A stretch of 64,000 nucleotides of DNA from Rhodococcus sp. 105337. GTDB taxonomy: Bacteria; Actinomycetota; Actinomycetes; Mycobacteriales; Mycobacteriaceae. Below are positions 10,274 to 19,298 of the stretch, one piece after another; position 1 is the stretch's first letter, and each line of letters starts with the position of its first letter. A model generated the notes under the pieces. The model worked only from the letters and a program-made list of their open reading frames with translations, had not been told where the DNA came from and ran no database searches. The position numbers were made by a program, and so were the translations under genes. The stretch covers positions 1-64,000 of the forward strand of contig NZ_JABAGQ010000016.1 in assembly GCF_012844225.1 (NCBI RefSeq), in the 5' to 3' direction.

Positions 10274-11644
10274 CGGGGGTGCCGGAAGTTCCTTCTGGCC
10301 CAGCCACGCATCCCACAGGGGGCGCAGCGAGGTGTCGGAGAAGCGAGCAGCGAGATCTTTGAATTGTGTCGTCGTGACGTTGGAATGGCGATGTTCCGAC
10401 GTCCATGTCCGGAGAAGCGTGAAAAACGAGTCGTCGCCCAGAGTCAGGCGCAACGCATGCAGGGTGAGCGCTCCGCGCTTGTAGATCCGGTCGTCGAACA
10501 TGTCCTTCGCGCCGGGATCCTCGAGGAGGATGTCCTGGGGCTTGCGGGAAAGGCCGCGATACGCGTCGGCCGCGAGGGCCTGGGCAGACGGACCACCGGA
10601 GTTCTCGGACCACAGCCACTCGGCGTAACACGCGAAACCTTCGTGGAGCCAGATGTCGCACCAGCGAGACAGAGTCAGGCTGTTGCCGAACCATTGGTGA
10701 GCCAATTCGTGTGCCACGAGCCGTTCTTCGGTCCTGTGCCCGTCGCAGAAATTGGCCCCGAACGTGGACAGACCCTGCGCCTCGATGGGGATCTCGAGGT
10801 CGTCGTCGGTCACCAGGGCCGTGTAGTGCGCGAAGGGGTACGGGCCGAACAGGCGCGTGAACAACTCGAGCATCTCCTGTTGCCGCCCGAAGTCCTTGTC
10901 GAACGCGTCGCGCAGGCGTGACGGGTGTACCGCGTACTGCGGCACCGGCGACGACGCGATCGCGCGCATCTCGTAGTGCCCGATCTGCACGGTCGCCAGG
11001 TACGTCGCCATCGGCTCGGGTTGCTCGTAGACCCACGTGGTCCGGCTGGATTTGGTCGTCTTGTGGACGAGCGTTCCGTTCGCGATCGCCTGGAACGGCG
11101 CGTCCGTGGTGATCGAGATGCGGTAGGTCGCTTTCGATCCGGGATGGTCGTCGCACGGAAACCACGACGGAGCGCCGTTGGGCTGGCTCGCGACGAGCGA
11201 GCCCTCCTCGAGTTCCTCCCACCCGACATCACCCCACATGGTGTGGAGCGGTGTGGGGGTGCCGGCGTACTGGACGGAGAGGGTCAGCACCGCGCCCGCG
11301 GGGATGGCGTCCGCGGGGGTGACGGTGAGCTTGCCGCCGCGGTGCACGAACTTGGCGGGTCGTCGCCCGTTGACCGTCACCTTGGACACGCGCATCGACG
11401 GTGCGAGGTCGAGTGCGAACTTTCCCCGCACATCGGTGGTCGTCGCGATGATGACGGCCCGGCCCTCCAACCGGTTCGCCATGATCTTGTAGGCGAGATC
11501 GAGTTCGTACCGCGACACGCGGTAGCCGCGGTTGCCGCTGGTCGGAAGGTACGGGTCGAGGGGACGGTCGGCGGTCACGGGCGGCACCGGCTTCGCGGCC
11601 TTGATCGGTTTCACCGCGGTGACCAGTCGCCCGGGGACGTCCAC
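10265..11644 (-). CDS. M1-family zinc aminopeptidase
   Basis: 459 residues. HELAH (312-316) plus Glu335 gives the HExxH-x18-E zinc site of M1 (gluzincin) aminopeptidases; IPIEAQG (285-291) sits where the GAMEN exopeptidase loop is expected but is divergent. At under half the length of PepN-type enzymes it contains the N-terminal beta-saddle and catalytic domain only. The chosen GTG start lies 34 nt inside the end of the upstream synthetase gene, which suggests translational coupling. Processing or turnover of the synthetase product is an attractive inference. No signal peptide is evident, so it is probably cytoplasmic. Confidence 0.88.
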   Translation of the reverse strand: MDVPGRLVTAVKPIKAAKPVPPVTADRPLDPYLPTSGNRGYRVSRYELDLAYKIMANRLEGRAVIIATTTDVRGKFALDLAPSMRVSKVTVNGRRPAKFVHRGGKLTVTPADAIPAGAVLTLSVQYAGTPTPLHTMWGDVGWEELEEGSLVASQPNGAPSWFPCDDHPGSKATYRISITTDAPFQAIANGTLVHKTTKSSRTTWVYEQPEPMATYLATVQIGHYEMRAIASSPVPQYAVHPSRLRDAFDKDFGRQQEMLELFTRLFGPYPFAHYTALVTDDDLEIPIEAQGLSTFGANFCDGHRTEERLVAHELAHQWFGNSLTLSRWCDIWLHEGFACYAEWLWSENSGGPSAQALAADAYRGLSRKPQDILLEDPGAKDMFDDRIYKRGALTLHALRLTLGDDSFFTLLRTWTSEHRHSNVTTTQFKDLAARFSDTSLRPLWDAWLGQKELPAPPRI

Positions 11645-14600
11645 GCCGAGATCGGGTTGCCCTGCCAGCGGGTCGACGGTGGCACGACGTCGCCGCGCAT
11701 CACCAGAGATGCGGGTCCGACAGTGGCGCCGTCACCGATCCCCGATGCGGGTAGCGCGACGCACTGGGGGCCGAGGCTCGCGCCGGCGCCGAGAGTCACG
11801 GTGTCCATGGCCATGATCCGATCATGGAACAAGTGTGTCTGTACAACGCACCCGCGTTCCACTGTCGCGCCGTCGCCCAGCGTCACGAGGTCCGCTTCGG
11901 GCAGCCAGTAGCTTTCGCACCACACTCCGCGTCCGATCGTGGAACCGAGTGCGCGCAGCCACAGGTTCGTGGCCGCGGTGCCCGTCGCCGCGCGGGCGAA
12001 CCACGGCGCGGCGACGGTCTCGACGAAGGTGTCCGATACTTCGTTGCGCCACACGAATGAACTCCACAGCGGATGTTCTTCTCGGCCGATGCGCCCCACG
12101 ATCAGCCATTTCGCCGCGATCGTCACCAGGCACGCGACCGCGCCGGCGGCCATCAGCACCACACCGCCGAGCAGGACGGCGATCCGGTACCCGAAGTGCG
12201 ACGCGAGCGTGTTGAGTGTGAAGAGAACTCCCAGCCCGATCCCGAACGTGACGATCATCGGGACGAGCCGGCAGGTCTCGACGAGACCGCGGGCGATCCG
12301 CAGCTTCGGCGACGGTGCGAACGTGCGGCTCGCATCGCCCTCACCCGCAGCGCGGCGCAGTCGCACCGGGGGACTGCCGAGCCAGGACGACCCCGATTTC
12401 GCTTTCTGGGGTGCGGCCGAGAGGACCGCGACGAGACCGTGCTTCGGGACACGGCGGCCGGGCGCCGCCATACCGGAATTACCGAGGAACGCCCGCTTTC
12501 CGACTTTGGCGTGCGAGATGTAGAGCCAGCCGCCCCCGAGTTCGTACGACGCGACCATCGTGTCGTCGGCCAGGAAGGCTCCGTCGGCGACCTTCGTGAA
12601 CTTGGGCACCATGAGCACCGTCGACGCCTCGACGTCCTTGCCGATGTCGGCGCCGAGGAGCCGGAGCCAGCCCGGCGTGAGCATCGACGCGTACAGCGGG
12701 AAGAGGAAGGTGCGCGACGAATCCATCAGACGCTCGGTGGCCCACACCTGCCAGCCGATGCGGCTCCGGACCGGATGCCAGCCCTCCGTCATACGAATCG
12801 ACAACAGTCGCACGGCGATCAGCGTGGTGAGTGCGAAGACGAACATGGTCAGCAACGCCGCGACCGGAAGCATCGCCAGGGACCGGGGAACGGCGTCTGC
12901 GACGGTCGCGGTGTCGCGCACCCACCACACGAGTAGCGCGACACCTGCCGCGATCGACGCGATCGGCAGGCCGCCGAGGAGGACGGAGGTCAAGGCGTAG
13001 ACGGGAATCCAGCGGGCTCCGCGGGGTGGTGCCTCCGAGGGCCAGGGACGGTCGGCCTTGCCGATCTTCTTGGCCGGCGACCCAGCCCAGTGCTGCCCGG
13101 ACTTCACGCGCCCGAACACCGCGGAGCCGGCCTCGACTTCGGCATTCTTGCCGATGCGCGCACCGGGGGCGAGGAACGAGCGGGCACCGACGGCCGCGCC
13201 GGCACCCACCCGGATGGTGCCGATGTGGACGAGGTCGCCGTCGACCCAGTGACCCGACAGATCGACCTCGGGTTCGATCGAGCAGCCGTCGCCGAGTTCG
13301 AGGAGCCCGGTGATCGGGGGAAGGCTGTGGAGGTCGACATCTCGTCCCACCTTCGCTCCCAGGGCACGAGCGTAGTTCCGCATCCACGGGGCGCCCGAAA
13401 TGTTGGTTGCTCCGACGGCGTCGGACAGGCGTAGCGCCGTCCACAGTCGCAGGTGCACCGAGCCGCCCCGCGGGTAACTTCCGGGAACCACATCGCGGAG
13501 CAGCAGCCGCGCTCCCACGACGGCAAGCGCCATGCGCCCGGGAGGGGTAAGGAACAGGGCGGCACCGAACGCGGTCCACCACCACGACAGGGTAACCGTC
13601 CACGGCACGTCGACGACCAGGCTGACGACGTTGTTGAGGATCGCGAGCCAGACGACCCACTGCAGTCCGGTGAGCGTCATGAGCGGCACGGTCGCGACGA
13701 TCTGCGCGAACTGTGCGCGACGCGACACCGGAGCGACCACGCGGTGCGTGGCAGCGGTCGTCGGAGCCAGTTCGTCCAAGTAGACGGCGAGGGACCCGAG
13801 GCGCGGCCGGTCGTACAGCTGTGCGACGGTCATTTCCGGGTAGCGGGCACGAATGGCGGTGACGAGCTGGGCGGCTGCGAGCGAACCCCCGCCGAGTTCG
13901 AAGAAATCGTCGTCCAGGCCGTCGATGGGAGCGCCGAGGATGTCCGTCCACAACCCCGCCAGCCACGCGGCGGTGGGGTCGAGACCGAGGGCGTCGATCG
14001 AGTCGGCGTCTGCGCCGGGGAGCGGCCACGGCAAGGCGTTGCGGTCCACTTTCCCCGAGGTTCGGGTGGGGAGTTCGTCGACCCGGGCGAGCCGGGGCAC
14101 GAGGGCGGCAGGAAGCTGCTCGGACAGGAGGTCGTGCGCGGCCGCCAGATCGAAGTCGGGGTCCGTCGAGGCGAGGTAGCCGACGAGAACCGAGTGTCCC
14201 GTCGCCGTCGTACGGACGGCGCAGGCGGCGCCGGCGACGCCCGGCAGGTTCTGCAAGGCATTGTCGACCTCACCGAGTTCGATGCGGCGTCCGCCGATCT
14301 TCACCTGATCGTCGGCACGCCCCTGGAACAGCAGTCCTTGCCGGTCGAGCACGACGAGGTCACCGCTGCGGTAGGCGCGCGACCATCCGAGACTCGGCAT
14401 GGGCGCGTACTTTTCGGCGTCCTTCGCCGGGTCGAGGTATCGCGCCAGTCCCACGCCGCCGATGACGAGTTCACCGGCTTCTCCCTCGGCGACGGGGTTG
14501 CCCTCGGCGTCGACGACAGCGAGATCCCAGCCGTCGAGGGGCAGCCCGATGCGGACCGGCCCGGAGCCGTCCATGAGTGAGGCGCACGCGACGACGGTGG

Positions 14601-15516
14601 CTTCCGTCGGACCGTAGGTGTTCCACAGCTCTCGTCCCGGAACAGCGAGCCGTTCGACGAGGTCCGGCGGGCACGACTCGCCGCCGAAAATGAGCAGCCG
14701 CACCGCTTCGAGAGATTCGGCCGGCCACATCGCGGCGAGGGTCGGCACGGTGGAGACGACGCTGATGTCACGGGAGATCAGCCAGGGGCCGAGGTCCATG
14801 CCGGACCGGACCAATGAGCGCGGAGCGGGTACCAGGCACGCGCCGTGGCGCCACGCGAGCCACATCTCCTCACATGAGGCGTCGAATGCGACCGACAGGC
14901 CGGCCAGCACCCGGTCTCCCGGCCCGATCGGGGCGTCTCGGCAGAACAATCGCGCTTCGGCGTCGACGAATGCGGCGGCGTTGAGGTGCGTCACCGCCAC
15001 GCCCTTCGGAGTGCCGGTCGATCCCGACGTGAAGATGATCCACGCATCGTCCTCGAGCCGTGGACCGCGCAGCGGCGGGTCGGCCCGTACGGGAGCGGTA
15101 CCGGGACCGATGCCGTCGTCGGTGACGACGGCGGTCACCCGGGCCTCGGAAAACACCAGGTCGGCGCGCTCGTCCGGGTCGTCGGCGTCCACGGGAACGT
15201 AGGCCGCGCCCGCGGCCAGGATCGCCAGGATGGTCACATACAGCTCGGCTCTGCCCGAGGTCATCCGAACCCCGACCCGATCGCCCGCACCGACGCCGGC
15301 GTCGAGGAGGGCGTACGCGCCCACCCTGACTTTCTCGAGCAGTTCCGCGTAGCCGATGACGCCGGTGCCGTCGTCGATCGCCGGTGCGTCGGGATGCGCC
15401 TCGGCGGTCGCGCGCAGGATGTCGACGAGGGTGCGGGGTGGCGGTGCGTGCGACGCGCGAAGAAACTCTGCGGGGATCACAGAGCTGCGGGGTTCAGCGG
15501 GGAGTGGGGCAGGCAA
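11611..15516 (-). CDS. Pls/PosA-type membrane non-ribosomal peptide synthetase
   Basis: 1301 residues. An adenylation domain (about 30-500) has the P-loop IIFTSGSTGTPKG (160-172), FDAS (211-214, the Asp that binds the amino group), YRSGD (382-386) and the C-terminal Lys in TSGKVDRNAL (Lys489). A carrier domain follows (about 515-580, LGGGS with phosphopantetheine Ser545). The second half alternates transmembrane segments (about 605-670, 840-905, 1070-1115) with left-handed beta-helix hexapeptide blocks. This is the layout of epsilon-poly-lysine synthetase Pls and related enzymes that make homopolymers of an amino acid at the membrane. There is no canonical condensation or thioesterase domain. 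The TTG start at 15516 has AGAAGGA 10 nt upstream. The substrate is not predictable by eye. Confidence 0.85.
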   Translation of the reverse strand: MPAPLPAEPRSSVIPAEFLRASHAPPPRTLVDILRATAEAHPDAPAIDDGTGVIGYAELLEKVRVGAYALLDAGVGAGDRVGVRMTSGRAELYVTILAILAAGAAYVPVDADDPDERADLVFSEARVTAVVTDDGIGPGTAPVRADPPLRGPRLEDDAWIIFTSGSTGTPKGVAVTHLNAAAFVDAEARLFCRDAPIGPGDRVLAGLSVAFDASCEEMWLAWRHGACLVPAPRSLVRSGMDLGPWLISRDISVVSTVPTLAAMWPAESLEAVRLLIFGGESCPPDLVERLAVPGRELWNTYGPTEATVVACASLMDGSGPVRIGLPLDGWDLAVVDAEGNPVAEGEAGELVIGGVGLARYLDPAKDAEKYAPMPSLGWSRAYRSGDLVVLDRQGLLFQGRADDQVKIGGRRIELGEVDNALQNLPGVAGAACAVRTTATGHSVLVGYLASTDPDFDLAAAHDLLSEQLPAALVPRLARVDELPTRTSGKVDRNALPWPLPGADADSIDALGLDPTAAWLAGLWTDILGAPIDGLDDDFFELGGGSLAAAQLVTAIRARYPEMTVAQLYDRPRLGSLAVYLDELAPTTAATHRVVAPVSRRAQFAQIVATVPLMTLTGLQWVVWLAILNNVVSLVVDVPWTVTLSWWWTAFGAALFLTPPGRMALAVVGARLLLRDVVPGSYPRGGSVHLRLWTALRLSDAVGATNISGAPWMRNYARALGAKVGRDVDLHSLPPITGLLELGDGCSIEPEVDLSGHWVDGDLVHIGTIRVGAGAAVGARSFLAPGARIGKNAEVEAGSAVFGRVKSGQHWAGSPAKKIGKADRPWPSEAPPRGARWIPVYALTSVLLGGLPIASIAAGVALLVWWVRDTATVADAVPRSLAMLPVAALLTMFVFALTTLIAVRLLSIRMTEGWHPVRSRIGWQVWATERLMDSSRTFLFPLYASMLTPGWLRLLGADIGKDVEASTVLMVPKFTKVADGAFLADDTMVASYELGGGWLYISHAKVGKRAFLGNSGMAAPGRRVPKHGLVAVLSAAPQKAKSGSSWLGSPPVRLRRAAGEGDASRTFAPSPKLRIARGLVETCRLVPMIVTFGIGLGVLFTLNTLASHFGYRIAVLLGGVVLMAAGAVACLVTIAAKWLIVGRIGREEHPLWSSFVWRNEVSDTFVETVAAPWFARAATGTAATNLWLRALGSTIGRGVWCESYWLPEADLVTLGDGATVERGCVVQTHLFHDRIMAMDTVTLGAGASLGPQCVALPASGIGDGATVGPASLVMRGDVVPPSTRWQGNPISAWTSPGDWSPR

Positions 15517-15696: not shown

Positions 15697-15725
15697 TTGA
15701 CACGGGACCGCCCGACTGCAATCCT
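15697..15725 (+). promoter_or_regulatory. Promoter driving the SAM-IV riboswitch
   Basis: A consensus -35 TTGACA (15697-15702) is followed after 17 nt by AATCCT (15720-15725). Transcription would begin near 15732, just at the first paired bases of the riboswitch aptamer, which supports both assignments. Confidence 0.6.
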
Positions 15726-15731
15726 CTTCGG

Positions 15732-15813
15732 CAGGTCATGAGTACCAGCATCGAGCCCCGGCTTGCTGGTCGGCAACCCTCCTCCGCGGTGGGGTGCTCC
15801 GGGTGACGACCTG
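15732..15813 (+). promoter_or_regulatory. SAM-IV riboswitch aptamer
   Basis: The sequence matches the actinobacterial SAM-IV pattern as I know it. P1 is CAGGTC (15732-15737) with GACCTG (15808-15813). P2 is ACCAGCA (15744-15750) with TGCTGGT (15764-15770), and its loop GAGCCCCGG contains a C-run that can form the pseudoknot with the GGGG of CGGTGGGGTG downstream. The conserved ATGAG after P1 and CGGCAACCC after P2 are present. SAM-IV elements bind S-adenosylmethionine and switch off sulfur or methionine genes. Here the regulated gene is the class V enzyme at 15920. I do not see a clear terminator hairpin, so control of the ribosome binding site is more likely. Confidence 0.85.
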
Positions 15814-15919
15814 GCTGTGATTCCAATACCGGACACGGCAAGCGCGGACTCCGCCGGCGATCGTTTCCCTTCGTCGTGGCGATTACCGACGGGTCCCTGG
15901 ATCGACGAGGGATTTTGTC

Positions 15920-17233
15920 ATGACTGCTGTATCTGCCACCGCCTGCATCGCGCCGTTCGCACACGTCTCCGGGTGTGATGTGCAGGTGCCGCTCGTGCAG
16001 GGCGGCACCTGCACCTACGCCAACTTCGATTACGCGGCGAGTGCACCTGCTCTCGCCACAGTCACCGAACGCATCGCCGAGTTGCTGCCGTACTACGCGA
16101 GCGTCCATCGCGGCGCCGGATACGCCTCGCGGGTGAGCACCGCGAGTTACGAGGATTCACGAGAGTCGGTGGCGCGCTTCGTCGGTGCCGACACCGATCA
16201 GGTCGTCGTCTTCACCCGCAACACGACCGATTCGCTGAACCTGCTGGCGGGCGCGGTGCCCGGTGACGTGGTGGTGCTCGACATCGAACACCACGCGAAC
16301 CTGCTCCCCTGGAAGAACTCCCGTGTTGTCGTGGCGGCCGACTCCATCACGGAGACCGTGCAGCGTATCGCCGAGGAGCTGAACCGGGCGCCGGCCGCGC
16401 TGCTCGCCGTCACGGGTGCCTCCAACGTAACCGGTGAAGTGCTGCCGATCTCCGAGCTCGCCGCCCTGGCTCATTCGTGCGGTGCGCGGATTCTCGTCGA
16501 CGGTGCGCAGTTGGTGCCCCACCGCAGCGTGGATCTCACCGCCGACGGAATCGATTACCTCGCCTTCTCCGGTCACAAGCTCTACGCCCCGTTCGGCGCC
16601 GGAGTGCTCGTGGGACGCCGCGACTGGCTCGACACCGCCGAGCCGTACCTCGCCGGTGGCGGCGCGGTGCGCGAGGTGACCCTCGACGGTGCCGAATGGG
16701 CTTGTGCCCCTGCGCGACACGAGGCCGGAACACCGAACGTACTCGGGGTTGCCGCCCTGGCCGCGGCATGCGACACCCTCGGCGGTTTCGACACCGAGGC
16801 CGCGGCGCGGCACGAGGAAGAACTGTGCCGCCTGCTCGTCGACGGATTGAGCGGCATCGAGGGCGTCGAGATCCTGAAGTTGTGGGACGACTCGGAAGAC
16901 TGCGTCGGCATCGTGACCTTCACCGTGGATGGATACGAACCGGGTGAGGTGGCGTCGTACCTTTCGGCCGAGCACGGAATCGGAGTGCGCGACGGGCGTT
17001 TCTGCGCGCACCCGCTGCTCGCACGCGTGGGACGCCCGGGTGGGGCGGTGCGCGCGTCGCTGGGGCTGGGCAGCTCGTCGGCAGACGTGGACCGGTTGCT
17101 CGCCGCGCTGCGCACTCTGGTTGCGCAAGGACCTGCGTGGACGCACGCGAAGACCGACGGCGTGTGGAGCCCGGCACCGGAAACCCGGCCCGGACTCGCG
17201 CAGTCGGGAGAGGGTGCGTCGCAATGCATCTGA
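15920..17233 (+). CDS. Class V aminotransferase, cysteine-desulfurase-like
   Basis: 437 residues. The PLP lysine is Lys220 in SGHKLYAPFG, with the stacking His in DIEHHANLLPW (124-125) and Asp194 in ILVDGAQ. FCAHPLL puts Cys362 where SufS/NifS-type desulfurases carry the sulfur-accepting Cys, so a persulfide-forming activity on cysteine or a related sulfur amino acid is plausible. There is no neighbouring suf or isc scaffold gene. It lies directly downstream of a SAM-IV riboswitch and upstream of a Cys leader peptide, so a role in sulfur amino acid metabolism is favoured over Fe-S assembly. Its last 30 residues extend beyond the family core. The precise substrate is unknown. Confidence 0.85.
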   Translation: MTAVSATACIAPFAHVSGCDVQVPLVQGGTCTYANFDYAASAPALATVTERIAELLPYYASVHRGAGYASRVSTASYEDSRESVARFVGADTDQVVVFTRNTTDSLNLLAGAVPGDVVVLDIEHHANLLPWKNSRVVVAADSITETVQRIAEELNRAPAALLAVTGASNVTGEVLPISELAALAHSCGARILVDGAQLVPHRSVDLTADGIDYLAFSGHKLYAPFGAGVLVGRRDWLDTAEPYLAGGGAVREVTLDGAEWACAPARHEAGTPNVLGVAALAAACDTLGGFDTEAAARHEEELCRLLVDGLSGIEGVEILKLWDDSEDCVGIVTFTVDGYEPGEVASYLSAEHGIGVRDGRFCAHPLLARVGRPGGAVRASLGLGSSSADVDRLLAALRTLVAQGPAWTHAKTDGVWSPAPETRPGLAQSGEGASQCI

Positions 17234-17248
17234 GCGTGAGGGTTGTGG

Positions 17249-17277
17249 TCGACAATTCCCCATGGGGTAGGTAGGGT
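17249..17277 (+). promoter_or_regulatory. Promoter for leader peptide 1, with a CCCCATGGGG palindrome in the spacer
   Basis: TCGACA (17249-17254), exactly 17 nt, then TAGGGT (17272-17277). The -10 ends 7 nt before ATG 17285, the spacing expected for a leaderless transcript starting at the A of the start codon. The spacer contains the perfect palindrome CCCCATGGGG (17258-17267), well placed for a repressor. Confidence 0.6.
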
Positions 17278-17284
17278 TCTCGTC

Positions 17285-17371
17285 ATGACCTCGGAGGCGA
17301 CTGCAACGGCGCACTGGTGCCGCCGGCATGTCGATCTGTGCCGCACCGCCTCGGGTACCTGTCCGGACTGA
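17285..17371 (+). CDS. Cysteine-containing leader peptide 1
   Basis: A 28-codon ORF with three Cys (codons 12, 19, 26) and the core RRHVDLCRT. Short actinobacterial ORFs with an HVDLCR core are, to my knowledge, annotated as putative leader peptides before sulfur-related genes. The start sits 7 nt after a -10 hexamer, so it is probably translated from a leaderless mRNA. Four nt after its stop lies CTCTC (17375-17379), which can pair with GAGAG of the ribosome binding site (17418-17422) of the next gene. A ribosome reaching the stop would cover this anti-SD, whereas stalling at Cys codons would change its accessibility. The regulatory mechanism is inferred. Confidence 0.75.
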   Translation: MTSEATATAHWCRRHVDLCRTASGTCPD

Positions 17372-17429
17372 GTTCTCTCCGCACGCTTTTCAGCTGCTGC
17401 CGCATCGCGGCTCATTCGAGAGGTTACTC

Positions 17430-18023
17430 ATGTCCGATACCGATTCCACGTACCGGGACCGGACGCGGCGGTTGCTGCGCGTCGCGGTCGAACTCTCCGG
17501 GCACTCCGGACCCGACTACTGGGCCGATCTCACCGTCGGCAGTCCCGACGATCCTCCGCTCGATCCCGCCACGCCGTCCGGCAACGTAAGCCGGGTGCGC
17601 GCCGCAGATCTGCGGGAAACAGCGAAGATTCGCGACCGGATCCGTACCGAGGCCGTCGCGGAGGGTCGCGACCCCGACGCGGTGACGGTGCTCGTCGACC
17701 TCGAGGTGGTCGTCGACCCCGATGCACGTGCCGCGCGGATCCGCCACGCTCGGACCGACGGGATTGCCCGGCGGGGTCCGAGCACGTTGTCCTATGTGGG
17801 AACGCCGCAGGGGCTTGCGAGTCTGATCGCCGACATCCATTCCGTCGGTGTGGCAGACGGCGTCACGCTGATTCCGTCGACGGCGCCGTTCACGGTGGAA
17901 CATCTCGTCGACGGCACGCTCCCGTGGCTCGAAGCCCGCGGACTGCTGACGGTGTCGCCGACTGTTGTGGAGGTTCTGCGACGGTTCGGTGAAGGGGTAG
18001 GTCCCGCGGCACGCGCGTCGTAG
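17430..18023 (+). CDS. Luciferase-like monooxygenase C-terminal-domain protein
   Basis: 197 residues. The pattern YVGTPQGLASLIADIHSVG, then ADGVTLIPS and a LPWLEARGLL ending, matches the C-terminal third of flavin-dependent luciferase-like (LLM) monooxygenases, and the basic RVRAADLRETAKIRDRIR segment resembles the middle of the same family. The N-terminal half of the TIM barrel, with much of the flavin site, is absent, so this is either a stand-alone small subunit or regulator, or a degenerate remnant. No missing half is found upstream. The start ATG 17430 has GAGAGG 6 nt upstream. LLM enzymes often release sulfur from organosulfur compounds, which fits the Cys leader peptide in front of it. 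Confidence 0.65.
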   Translation: MSDTDSTYRDRTRRLLRVAVELSGHSGPDYWADLTVGSPDDPPLDPATPSGNVSRVRAADLRETAKIRDRIRTEAVAEGRDPDAVTVLVDLEVVVDPDARAARIRHARTDGIARRGPSTLSYVGTPQGLASLIADIHSVGVADGVTLIPSTAPFTVEHLVDGTLPWLEARGLLTVSPTVVEVLRRFGEGVGPAARAS

Positions 18024-18036
18024 CCGGAACAGGGAC

Positions 18037-18072
18037 GACGAAGGGGCAGGAGATTTCTCCTGCCCCTTCGTC
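18037..18072. terminator. Bidirectional terminator, 17-bp perfect stem
   Basis: GACGAAGGGGCAGGAGA (18037-18053) and its exact complement (18056-18072) with a 2-nt gap, between the convergent LLM-like and winged-helix genes. This is a strong rho-independent-type hairpin serving both strands, although the U-tracts are short. Confidence 0.85.
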
Positions 18073-18078
18073 TGTGGT

Positions 18079-18597
18079 CTAGGCGCTTCGCCGGTGGAGA
18101 GGTGTGACGACATGGACGCGCGCATCGGGGTCGAAGCGGTAGCCGGCGCCTCGGACAGTGGTGACGATGTCGCCGAACCTGCCGAGTTTCGACCGGATCC
18201 GGGAGACGTGCACATCGACGCTCCGGTTACCGCGTTCGGGATCGATGTAGCCGGCACCGAGGGTACGCAGAGTCGATCGCGGAACCGCTGTGTGAGGGCG
18301 ATCGACGAGATACGAAAATATCTCGAATTCGGTGTGGCTCAGTTCTACTCGGCTGCCGTCGAGCACCAGGCCGCGAGCGGGCAGGTCCACCACGAGCGGT
18401 GCGGGCCCCGGGCTGAGGAGCGTGTGCGTGCGTGCGCCGGGAAGAAGGCCGGTCGCTGTTTCGCGGAGCGCGTCGGCGAGTGCCGCGAGGTCGCCCGGGT
18501 TGACAGCGCCCGTGTCCGAAACTTGGACGATCAGAACGAGTTCCGGCTCATCGACTGAGGCGGTGCCGGGTGTGCGTTCGAGGTGGTCGGTGGTCAT
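18079..18597 (-). CDS. Winged-helix (OmpR/PhoB-type) transcriptional regulator without a receiver domain
   Basis: 172 residues. The C-terminal half is a Trans_reg_C winged helix (HTEFEIFSYLVDRP, then SVDVHVSRIRSKLG and VRGAGYRF). The N-terminal 90 residues contain a short beta-alpha unit (ELVLIVQVSD, then a Leu/Ala-rich helix) but no phospho-acceptor Asp/Lys arrangement, so it is not a typical two-component regulator. The start was set at ATG 18597 because GGAG lies 7 nt upstream; an ATG at 18645 would add 16 residues. It sits behind a Cys leader peptide, so its amount is probably tied to cysteine supply, and it may regulate the neighbouring sulfur genes. The target is inferred from position. 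Confidence 0.8.
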   Translation of the reverse strand: MTTDHLERTPGTASVDEPELVLIVQVSDTGAVNPGDLAALADALRETATGLLPGARTHTLLSPGPAPLVVDLPARGLVLDGSRVELSHTEFEIFSYLVDRPHTAVPRSTLRTLGAGYIDPERGNRSVDVHVSRIRSKLGRFGDIVTTVRGAGYRFDPDARVHVVTPLHRRSA

Positions 18598-18699
18598 TCG
18601 AAGACTCCGCTCGGAGAATGGGAATCGGCGCGCCGCATGACGCATATGCCGCGGGTGACGATCGCGGTTGCCGGGAAAGGAGAAGGGCTGGTGCGTATC

Positions 18700-18771
18700 T
18701 CAGCGTGCACACAGGCTCGAGCGGGTGCGGCACAGGTCGACATGCCTGCGGCTCCACGCTCGGTCGGTCAT
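18700..18771 (-). CDS. Cysteine-containing leader peptide 2
   Basis: A 23-codon ORF carrying the same RRHVDLCRT core as leader 1; the 27 coding bases differ at only two positions. It has two Cys codons (14 and 21). The -10-like TACACT (minus-strand reading of 18779-18784) ends exactly 7 nt before its ATG, the same spacing as at leader 1, and there is no Shine-Dalgarno sequence, so leaderless translation is likely. It lies about 100 nt upstream of the winged-helix regulator and 53 nt downstream of ybaK. Its role as a cysteine-sensing attenuator is an inference from the Cys codons, position and relation to leader 1. Confidence 0.72.
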   Translation of the reverse strand: MTDRAWSRRHVDLCRTRSSLCAR

Positions 18772-18778
18772 GAGTCGA

Positions 18779-18784
18779 AGTGTA
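18779..18784 (-). promoter_or_regulatory. -10 element for leader peptide 2
   Basis: Reads TACACT on the minus strand, ending 7 nt before the leader ATG. I find no convincing -35 at 16-19 nt spacing. Confidence 0.45.
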
Positions 18785-18824: not shown

Positions 18825-19298
18825 TCAGTCCACGTCCACGTCGATTCCTGCCGTGACGCGCATCAGTTCGCGGTATGTGGTTCGAAACAACGTGTTCGCG
18901 CACCCACCCGCCGCCCACAGTTCCGCGTGGTCCTTCAGTGACCGATCGATGTAGGTCGGGAGGTTGGTGGGGTGTCCGAGCGGGGCGACACCACCGACAG
19001 GCTGGCCGGTGACCTCGACGACCACCGAGCGGGGTGCCGGCGCCAGGGTGCCACCGAGGCGCTCGCCGGTGCGGTCGAGCGCGACCCGGTGTGCGCCCGA
19101 CACCAGGAGCAGGATCGGTTCGTCGTCGAGAAGGAACACCAGTGACTTCACGATGGAGCCCACGTCGGCTCCCACCGCCGCCGCGGACTGTTCCGCGGTG
19201 GTCACGGAGTCGGGTTGCCTCGTGATGAGCCCGTGGTGTCCACGAGCGATGAGCGTGTCGGCGACACGGGCCACGTTCGGGTGCCAGAACCTGCTCAT
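18825..19298 (-). CDS. ybaK: YbaK/EbsC-family aminoacyl-tRNA deacylase
   Basis: 157 residues covering the full YbaK domain (GADVGSIVKSLVF, LLVSGAHRV, PVGGVAPLGH). The GGVAPLG motif forms the substrate loop of trans-editing enzymes that hydrolyse mischarged tRNA, notably Cys-tRNA(Pro) for YbaK. Placement next to cysteine-responsive leader peptides is suggestive, because Cys-tRNA is the signal such leaders read. It is transcribed divergently from the dienoyl-CoA isomerase gene. Whether it shares a transcript with the leader and regulator downstream on the same strand is unclear. Confidence 0.85.
   Translation of the reverse strand: MSRFWHPNVARVADTLIARGHHGLITRQPDSVTTAEQSAAAVGADVGSIVKSLVFLLDDEPILLLVSGAHRVALDRTGERLGGTLAPAPRSVVVEVTGQPVGGVAPLGHPTNLPTYIDRSLKDHAELWAAGGCANTLFRTTYRELMRVTAGIDVDVD

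Follow-up and report, generated by a model that had tools for sequence, protein, structure and literature searches.

A probable sulfur-supply island in Rhodococcus sp. 105337 with a SAM-IV riboswitch and two cysteine-containing leader peptides

The 64,000-nt stretch of Rhodococcus sp. 105337 DNA analysed here (contig NZ_JABAGQ010000016.1; hereafter the window) carries a 3.1-kb sulfur island made up of an aptamer of the SAM-IV class of S-adenosylmethionine (SAM) riboswitches, two short leader open reading frames (ORFs) and three genes, which encode a SufS-like cysteine desulfurase, a truncated protein resembling luciferase-like monooxygenases (LLM-like) and an orphan winged-helix protein (Table 1). 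We consider it probable that this is a conserved sulfur-supply island in which the SAM-IV riboswitch is combined with two cysteine leaders of the NF042934 type and in which cysteine shortage switches on the genes downstream of the leaders. In the proposed mechanism, high SAM would cause the riboswitch to hide the Shine-Dalgarno (SD) sequence of the desulfurase gene in a hairpin, and two leaderless leader ORFs would control the LLM-like gene and the winged-helix gene on convergent transcripts. When cysteinyl-tRNA runs short, ribosomes would halt on the cysteine codons in the last part of each leader, and the downstream gene would thereby be kept on.

The riboswitch and the conservation of the island

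The SAM-IV aptamer is matched over the full length of its Rfam model (1-116 of 116) at 105.8 bits against a gathering threshold of 38 (E 1.9e-18, cmscan), which bears out the preliminary description of such an aptamer before a desulfurase-like gene, and is the sole Rfam match of the window at gathering thresholds. SAM-IV is present somewhere in all 18 genomes of the genus and lies approximately 1.7 kb 5′ of the LLM-like gene in 16 of them; beyond the genus it was found at each of 20 loci tested from the 40 fetched, a sample that did not include L102, where the desulfurase gene is missing. The TTGACA element upstream of the aptamer is kept in 10 of 10 relatives listed, from 14 queried. Local folds, run with no shuffle control, predict the desulfurase SD to be paired (P 0.50-1.00) in 19 of 22 aligned loci, the other three being unscored as pairing was scored only where a start motif was found. 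From the computed aptamer and hairpin we infer that the SAM-IV/desulfurase unit would respond to SAM. The suggestion that SAM controls cysteine breakdown is plausible, but the enzyme itself is identifiable only as SufS-like, with 292.3 bits to the SufS model TIGR01979 against a cut-off of 475.1. Its motifs afsghk and rfCahp, which we take to hold the pyridoxal phosphate lysine and the catalytic cysteine of a desulfurase, align with PDB chain 8odq_B, a SufS-type chain named "Cysteine desulfurase". A second SAM-IV aptamer of this genome (93.5 bits, contig C12, 112655-112766) lies 5′ of a metX-like gene (homoserine O-acetyltransferase, named from sequence).

A search with an LLM-like alignment gave matches in 74 of the family's 251 genomes, distributed over 8 of 31 genera, and the loci of 70 of the 83 match rows were surveyed, representing 70 genomes (own genome included) in 7 of the 8 genera. 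In 68 of these 70 loci the LLM-like gene is preceded by the desulfurase gene in the same orientation, and leader 1 is recognisable in 66, in 65 by regular expression and additionally in L100, where the core reads HVDLCRC. Searches with the winged-helix protein matched 14 of the 18 genus genomes, own genome included and one match being weak and partial. Apart from the window's own locus they returned 13 loci (L013-L025) and four weak second matches (L026-L029). Both leaders are found in 12 of the 13 loci and leader 2 only in L024, so that leaders accompany all 13 winged-helix loci and none of the four weak matches, which is more than would be expected by chance. The leader cores are strongly conserved before these genes in related genomes, far more so than could be seen from the window alone. 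Neither of two outcomes that the preliminary description had named as refuting it, a missing SAM-IV hit and leader cores that are not conserved, was observed. In L042 (genome G016) the winged-helix gene seems degraded, with only residues 13-80 matched, and both leaders are present (L025).

Within the fetched stretches, a YbaK-like gene is found on the opposite (expected) strand in 48 of the 70 loci, a flavin reductase gene in 20 and a winged-helix gene in 17. It is quite possible, although we lean towards a regulated island, that these are simply neighbouring housekeeping sulfur genes under separate regulation, with each sensor acting alone and no circuit joining them. The three island promoters have no common motif when compared by eye, and the winged-helix and flavin reductase genes are each found in a minority of loci, as such a neighbourhood would lead one to expect; the desulfurase and LLM-like genes, however, are adjacent in 68 of 70 loci with their own sensors included. 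The lack of a common promoter motif, together with the 53 of 70 loci that have no detectable winged-helix gene in the fetched stretch, leaves the earlier proposal that the winged-helix protein feeds back on the island unsupported.

The leader peptides and their family

The two leaders have RRHVDLCRT in common and, as previously noted, are homologous; in the window, two synonymous differences are all that separates their 27-base cores. This likeness had been attributed to duplication or to strong selection. Across the 17 loci with both leaders (own locus included), the cores are 2-7 bases apart with a mean of 5.5 of 27, and 4-7 bases apart in 16 of the 17, whereas the nine core residues, six of whose codons were part of the search motif, are identical in 16 of 17. 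Recent duplication and nucleotide-level selection are rejected as the source of the similarity on these grounds and on those of the codon ratios given below, and the two-base difference in the window is a coincidence. Judged from these comparisons, selection on the leaders is exerted on amino acids, not on bases.

For further comparison, 79 leaders were collected with a strict six-codon motif, which leaves variants such as those of L065 (HVDLGRT, with the core cysteine replaced) and L102 (HVDFCRT) outside the set. A sequence rule divided them into 61 copies of leader 1 and 18 of leader 2 for the ratio of nonsynonymous to synonymous polymorphism (pN/pS), and into 58 and 20 for the pairing-probability model described below, for which one row without a start codon was dropped and the rule was loosened for L098 and L100. 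Over ten core codons, six of them fixed by the search motif, pN/pS is 0.138 and 0.139 for leaders 1 and 2, respectively. It is 0.23 and 0.29 for five codons that the search motif did not cover (R, R, T, S, G), and 0.91 and 1.18 for four codons from the N-terminal part of the leaders. L086 and L090-L092 hold natural core-deletion variants of leader 1, in which a shortened ORF keeps its start codon and a cysteine just before the stop.

Leader 2 matches the NCBIfam model NF042934, "putative leader peptide", at 29.2 bits, over the cut-off of 27; leader 1 reaches 26.8 bits, 0.2 under the cut-off, and is therefore classed as NF042934-like only. On sequence, the leaders appear to belong to, or closely resemble, this known actinobacterial family. 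Three more matches in the same genome, all under the cut-off (26.7, 21.9 and 21.0 bits), precede DUF4395 and rhodanese genes, an FprA-like reductase gene and a sulfite/nitrite-reductase-like gene, the last two named from sequence. At E 0.001 the model has matches in 110 of the 148 class genomes, in 96 of them over the cut-off, with up to 11 matches per genome, and none of 14 control genomes. Of 20 class-wide loci chosen from the top-scoring matches, 19 yielded a peptide. A cysteine follows the motif near the stop in each of these peptides, and in eight the core cysteine is replaced by L, V or Q.

These patterns bear on whether the peptide itself does the sensing. It is conceivable, if doubtful, that RRHVDLCRT in the exit tunnel acts with the C-terminal cysteine to sense cysteine or a cysteine-derived state directly as an arrested nascent chain, and not by tRNA starvation alone. 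The constraint on residues outside the search motif beside a drifting N-terminal part would fit such a role, as would the invariant cysteine near the stop when the core cysteine is replaceable; however, the VDLxR part of the motif was demanded by the search, and leaders with a natural deletion of the core survive at four of the 70 loci. A wider extension of the same idea, which we regard as rather unlikely, would make the RR(H/A)VDLxR leaders cysteine-dependent arrest peptides throughout the class, forming a sulfur regulon with up to about ten members per genome; in Rhodococcus, two of these would stand beside SAM-IV, so that SAM and cysteine would be read in parallel, with lineage-specific readouts by a start-hiding hairpin or by Rho.

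Both leader transcripts look leaderless, as suggested by a TANNNT element 6-7 nt before the in-frame start codon. This spacing occurs in 71 of the 79 leaders, a count favoured by the choice of leader start among in-frame candidates, against 162 of 17342 (0.93%) ATG or GTG codons in the same loci, and is 7 nt in both window leaders. The sequence GTCGACAATTCCCCA or a near variant lies 5′ of the leader 1 -10 element (17248-17262 in the window) in all genus loci listed (L012-L025 and L066-L068). It is kept with or without a nearby winged-helix gene, which is absent nearby in L066-L068, and is possibly a site for another regulator. A CGGTACCG-like element is found 5′ of many leader 2 copies.

How the leaders may be read out

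Leader 1 in the genus is probably read translationally: its end, together with the bases following its stop codon, would be paired with the start region of the LLM-like gene in a helix that a stalled ribosome would open. The predicted hairpin of the window has a minimum free energy (MFE) of -33.2 kcal/mol and a z-score of -3.70, with none of 200 shuffles as stable. The corresponding regions of the genus have z below 0 in 16 of 16 cases and below -2 in eight, against a mean of 0.19 in other genera (n=42), where three fall below -2; likewise, a mean probability above 0.3 for pairing between the end of the leader and the start region is reached in 12 of 16 genus regions and 2 of 42 elsewhere. The pairing register shifts between relatives, and the alignment of the region (A6) was therefore read by eye and a swap test used in place of an alignment fold. 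Within the genus, cognate halves reach -17.9 kcal/mol and swapped halves -15.2 (p 0.008, eight hand-made clusters), and two other pairings gave p 0.017 and p 0.62. In L116 and L119 the leader 1 frame crosses the LLM-like start codon and in L114 and L118 it ends 19 nt before it, an overlap or closeness which suggests that the two are translationally coupled in this lineage.

With leader 2, and outside the genus with leader 1 as well, a stalled ribosome would instead prevent Rho-dependent termination, to which the C-rich, G-poor spacers between leader and gene point. All 55 leader 1 spacers scored, three shorter than 20 nt having been omitted, and all 20 leader 2 spacers contain more C than G, as opposed to 101 of 175 control upstream regions. 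A C content at least twice that of G is seen in 36 of 55 and 10 of 20 spacers, respectively (46 of 75 together), in none of the 175 upstream regions of other genes and in 1.9% of random 55-mers. Such spacers are compatible with Rho entry sites. No intrinsic terminator was apparent after the leaders on reading the spacers, no dedicated terminator scan having been run. Swap tests of leader 2 gave p 0.003 for the post-stop segment against the SD and p 0.11 for two other pairings.

Attenuation by Rho alone, in which both leaders shield a C-rich Rho utilization (rut) site after the leader stop and the start-region hairpins have no role, seems to us unlikely, if not strongly so. The spacer composition described above speaks for it, and Rho sites were proposed, with reservations, on similar grounds for the cys leaders of Mycobacterium (PMC1262725). 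Against it stand the leader 1 hairpin of the window with its within-genus coevolution, the possibility that a C-rich spacer is selected to remain unstructured, and the class-wide sample, in which only 2 of 19 spacers are two-fold richer in C than in G. That the peptides are functional small proteins and not cis-acting leaders would agree with their amino-acid-level conservation but is very improbable, given their position directly 5′ of a same-strand gene, repeated before unrelated sulfur genes, and the free drift of their N-termini.

Several results weigh against the cysteine-starvation model for the island as set out at the beginning. The cysteines of leader 1 are three separate residues, and the two of leader 2 are likewise separate, with no poly-Cys tract in either, and RRHVDLCRT is lost in four of 70 loci (L086 and L090-L092) in which the promoter and the last cysteine are kept. 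In the class-wide sample, TANNNT lies near a start in only 11 of 19 leaders, and C exceeds G in 17 of 19 spacers but by two-fold in only the 2 given above; the leaderless and C-rich features are therefore weaker in that sample. As a whole, the 80-nt SAM-IV expression platform of the window folds no better than shuffles (z -0.04), and the same is true of its leader 2 region (z 0.33), with a mean z of -0.56 over 20 leader 2 regions and one of these below -2. The p of 0.008 for leader 1 is one of nine swap tests, and in other genera, with 25 clusters, cognate halves had no advantage over swapped ones (p 0.67-0.93).

The ribosome models likewise count against it. Over the 16 genus leader 1 regions, a ribosome at the last cysteine lowers the mean cost of opening the start region from 9.1 to 7.5 kcal/mol, and a terminating ribosome lowers it to 7.7. 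In the window itself the cost falls from 10.3 to 9.3 kcal/mol for stalled and terminating ribosomes alike, and for 13 genus leader 2 regions it barely changes with a stalled ribosome (8.3 to 8.0 kcal/mol). Since stalling lowers the cost by about 1.6 kcal/mol and termination by about 1.4, the models do not set stalling at cysteine apart from termination. In the pairing-probability model, mean SD accessibility is unchanged (0.24 to 0.24 for leader 1, 0.19 to 0.20 for leader 2) and that of leader 1 in the window drops from 0.25 to 0.00. Release of the SD by a cysteine-stalled ribosome is accordingly not borne out by the folding models, the pairing-probability model showing no effect and the opening-energy model a small one that is not stall-specific. 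The sensor peptide is conserved, and its readout seems to vary.

Target genes and comparison with known systems

The LLM-like protein scores 44.6 bits with TIGR03860, below the cut-off of 279.7, and the full-length barrel is not matched; all ten members of its alignment (A1) are matched weakly by this model. Its PDB matches fall at approximately positions 210-320 and 360-430 of enzymes of 420-490 aa, that is, in C-terminal segments, and the description of this protein as organosulfur-linked depends on its being a truncated LLM homologue. The winged-helix protein exceeds the PF00486 threshold (55.5 against 26.2 bits) with no receiver domain matched, and its start at 18597 is consistent with the alignment of relatives.

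Table 1. Features of the island and its flank (positions in the window).
Feature	Position	Strand	Evidence
-35 element TTGACA of the SAM-IV/desulfurase transcript	15697..15702	+	sequence; -10 weak in window
SAM-IV riboswitch aptamer (RF00634)	15734..15850	+	cmscan 105.8 bits
Probable expression platform (putative), UCCCU/AGGGA hairpin over the desulfurase SD	15894..15912	+	predicted folds
SufS-like cysteine desulfurase / class-V aminotransferase, 437 aa	15920..17233	+	PF00266 288.3 bits
Leader 1 -10 element TAGGGT, 7 nt 5′ of leader 1 start codon	17272..17277	+	
Leader peptide 1, 28 aa, MTSEATATAHWCRRHVDLCRTASGTCPD	17285..17371	+	NF042934 26.8 bits
Hairpin, leader 1 end and post-stop segment with SD/start region of LLM-like gene	17364..17436	+	MFE
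LLM-like truncated protein, 197 aa, C-terminal half of NtaA/DmoA-type flavin mononucleotide (FMN) monooxygenases	17430..18023	+	TIGR03860 44.6 bits
Orphan winged-helix protein, OmpR/PhoB C-terminal type	18079..18597	-	PF00486 55.5 bits
Leader peptide 2, 23 aa, MTDRAWSRRHVDLCRTRSSLCAR	18700..18771	-	NF042934 29.2 bits
Leader 2 -10 element TACACT, 7 nt 5′ of leader 2 start codon	18779..18784	-	
YbaK-like aminoacyl-tRNA editing protein, directly upstream of leader 2	18825..19298	-	PF04073 80.7 bits

Between leader 2 and the winged-helix gene, four genus relatives (L021-L024) carry a gene for a flavin reductase, the L021 copy of which scores 121.8 bits with PF01613. Outside the genus, leader 2 stands before flavin reductase and winged-helix genes (L093, L094, L095 and L097) or before a flavin reductase gene alone (L098 and L100), and it would thus control the reductase in these relatives with or without the winged-helix gene. 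Eleven of the 20 flavin reductase genes have no leader 2 in the approximately 230 nt upstream. No close flavin reductase copy was found elsewhere in the window's genome, the best matches having 31-36% identity. Because leader 2 precedes the reductase gene in relatives and this genome is without a close copy, the ancestral target of leader 2 probably included the reductase, the window representing a reduced form. The YbaK-like gene, possibly encoding a Cys-tRNA deacylase-like protein, could influence the signal that the leaders read. Divergent from the SAM-IV operon lies a gene (11611-15516, minus strand) for a Pls/PosA-type nonribosomal peptide synthetase protein of 1301 aa (TIGR02353, 750.9 bits), which is found beside the island within the genus and in certain other genera.

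The sensors are of known types, and their combination, conservation and targets seem to be undescribed in the searchable literature; no description of the leader motif or of the island was found in the literature searched, which covers only part of the field. The earlier impression of a new combination holds to that extent, the leader type itself being known and widespread in the class. What this analysis supplies is a set of targets and evolutionary evidence for a very common leader family for which no mechanism was found described beyond the poly-Cys cases, within a conserved cluster in which one sensor reads SAM and its neighbours probably read cysteine. The same peptide, placed before different spacers and with core-deletion variants, offers a natural system for separating codon starvation, nascent-chain arrest, hairpin and Rho models. 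The LLM-like half-protein, the flavin reductase and the orphan regulator are likely unrecognised parts of actinobacterial sulfur metabolism.

The window aptamer is a full-length, high-scoring member of SAM-IV (RF00634) that differs in its context, standing before a SufS-like desulfurase gene when the genome's second copy stands before a metX-like gene. SsuD/SsuE and DmoA/DmoB are two-component pairs of an FMN monooxygenase and a flavin reductase. The LLM-like gene and, in relatives, the flavin reductase gene would be placed under sibling leaders in a comparable pairing, but the LLM-like protein is without the N-terminal half and the window's genome without a close reductase copy. TnaC senses tryptophan directly as a nascent chain. 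The leaders resemble attenuators of this type in their conserved non-sensing residues and in a possible rut site directly after the leader stop, and differ in that cysteine takes the place of tryptophan and nascent-chain sensing is only a proposal here. Both leaders show the same 19-position motif as the NF042934 family (cis_reg_atten), whose model name states no ligand, mechanism or target, whereas targets and conservation are given here for two members.

The closest parallels are found in mycobacteria, in which the work of Canestrari and co-workers in 2020 reportedly concerned cysteine-responsive, leaderless poly-Cys leaders. A later paper cites that work as showing that cysteine genes of M. 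smegmatis are attenuated at the level of translation (PMC13236596), and another reports a conserved Cys-rich small ORF with ribosome occupancy before cysA2 (PMC4633059). Leaders with Cys codons before the cys operons of Mycobacterium and other actinobacteria, with no terminator and with possible Rho sites rated a weak prediction, are likewise described (PMC1262725), and none of eight leader peptides listed for S. lividans is termed cysteine-dependent (PMC8079986). Like the mycobacterial leaders, those of the window are probably leaderless short ORFs with Cys codons near the stop and sulfur genes downstream, and a similar leader precedes the DUF4395 and rhodanese genes in the same genome. As for the hairpin that hides the ribosome-binding site in the mycobacterial attenuators, leader 1 has a candidate (z -3.70) but stalling and termination act alike on it in the models, and leader 2 has no such hairpin (z 0.33). 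The window leaders are set apart by two or three separate cysteines beside an RRHVDLCRT core, and by their targets, an LLM-like protein and a winged-helix protein.

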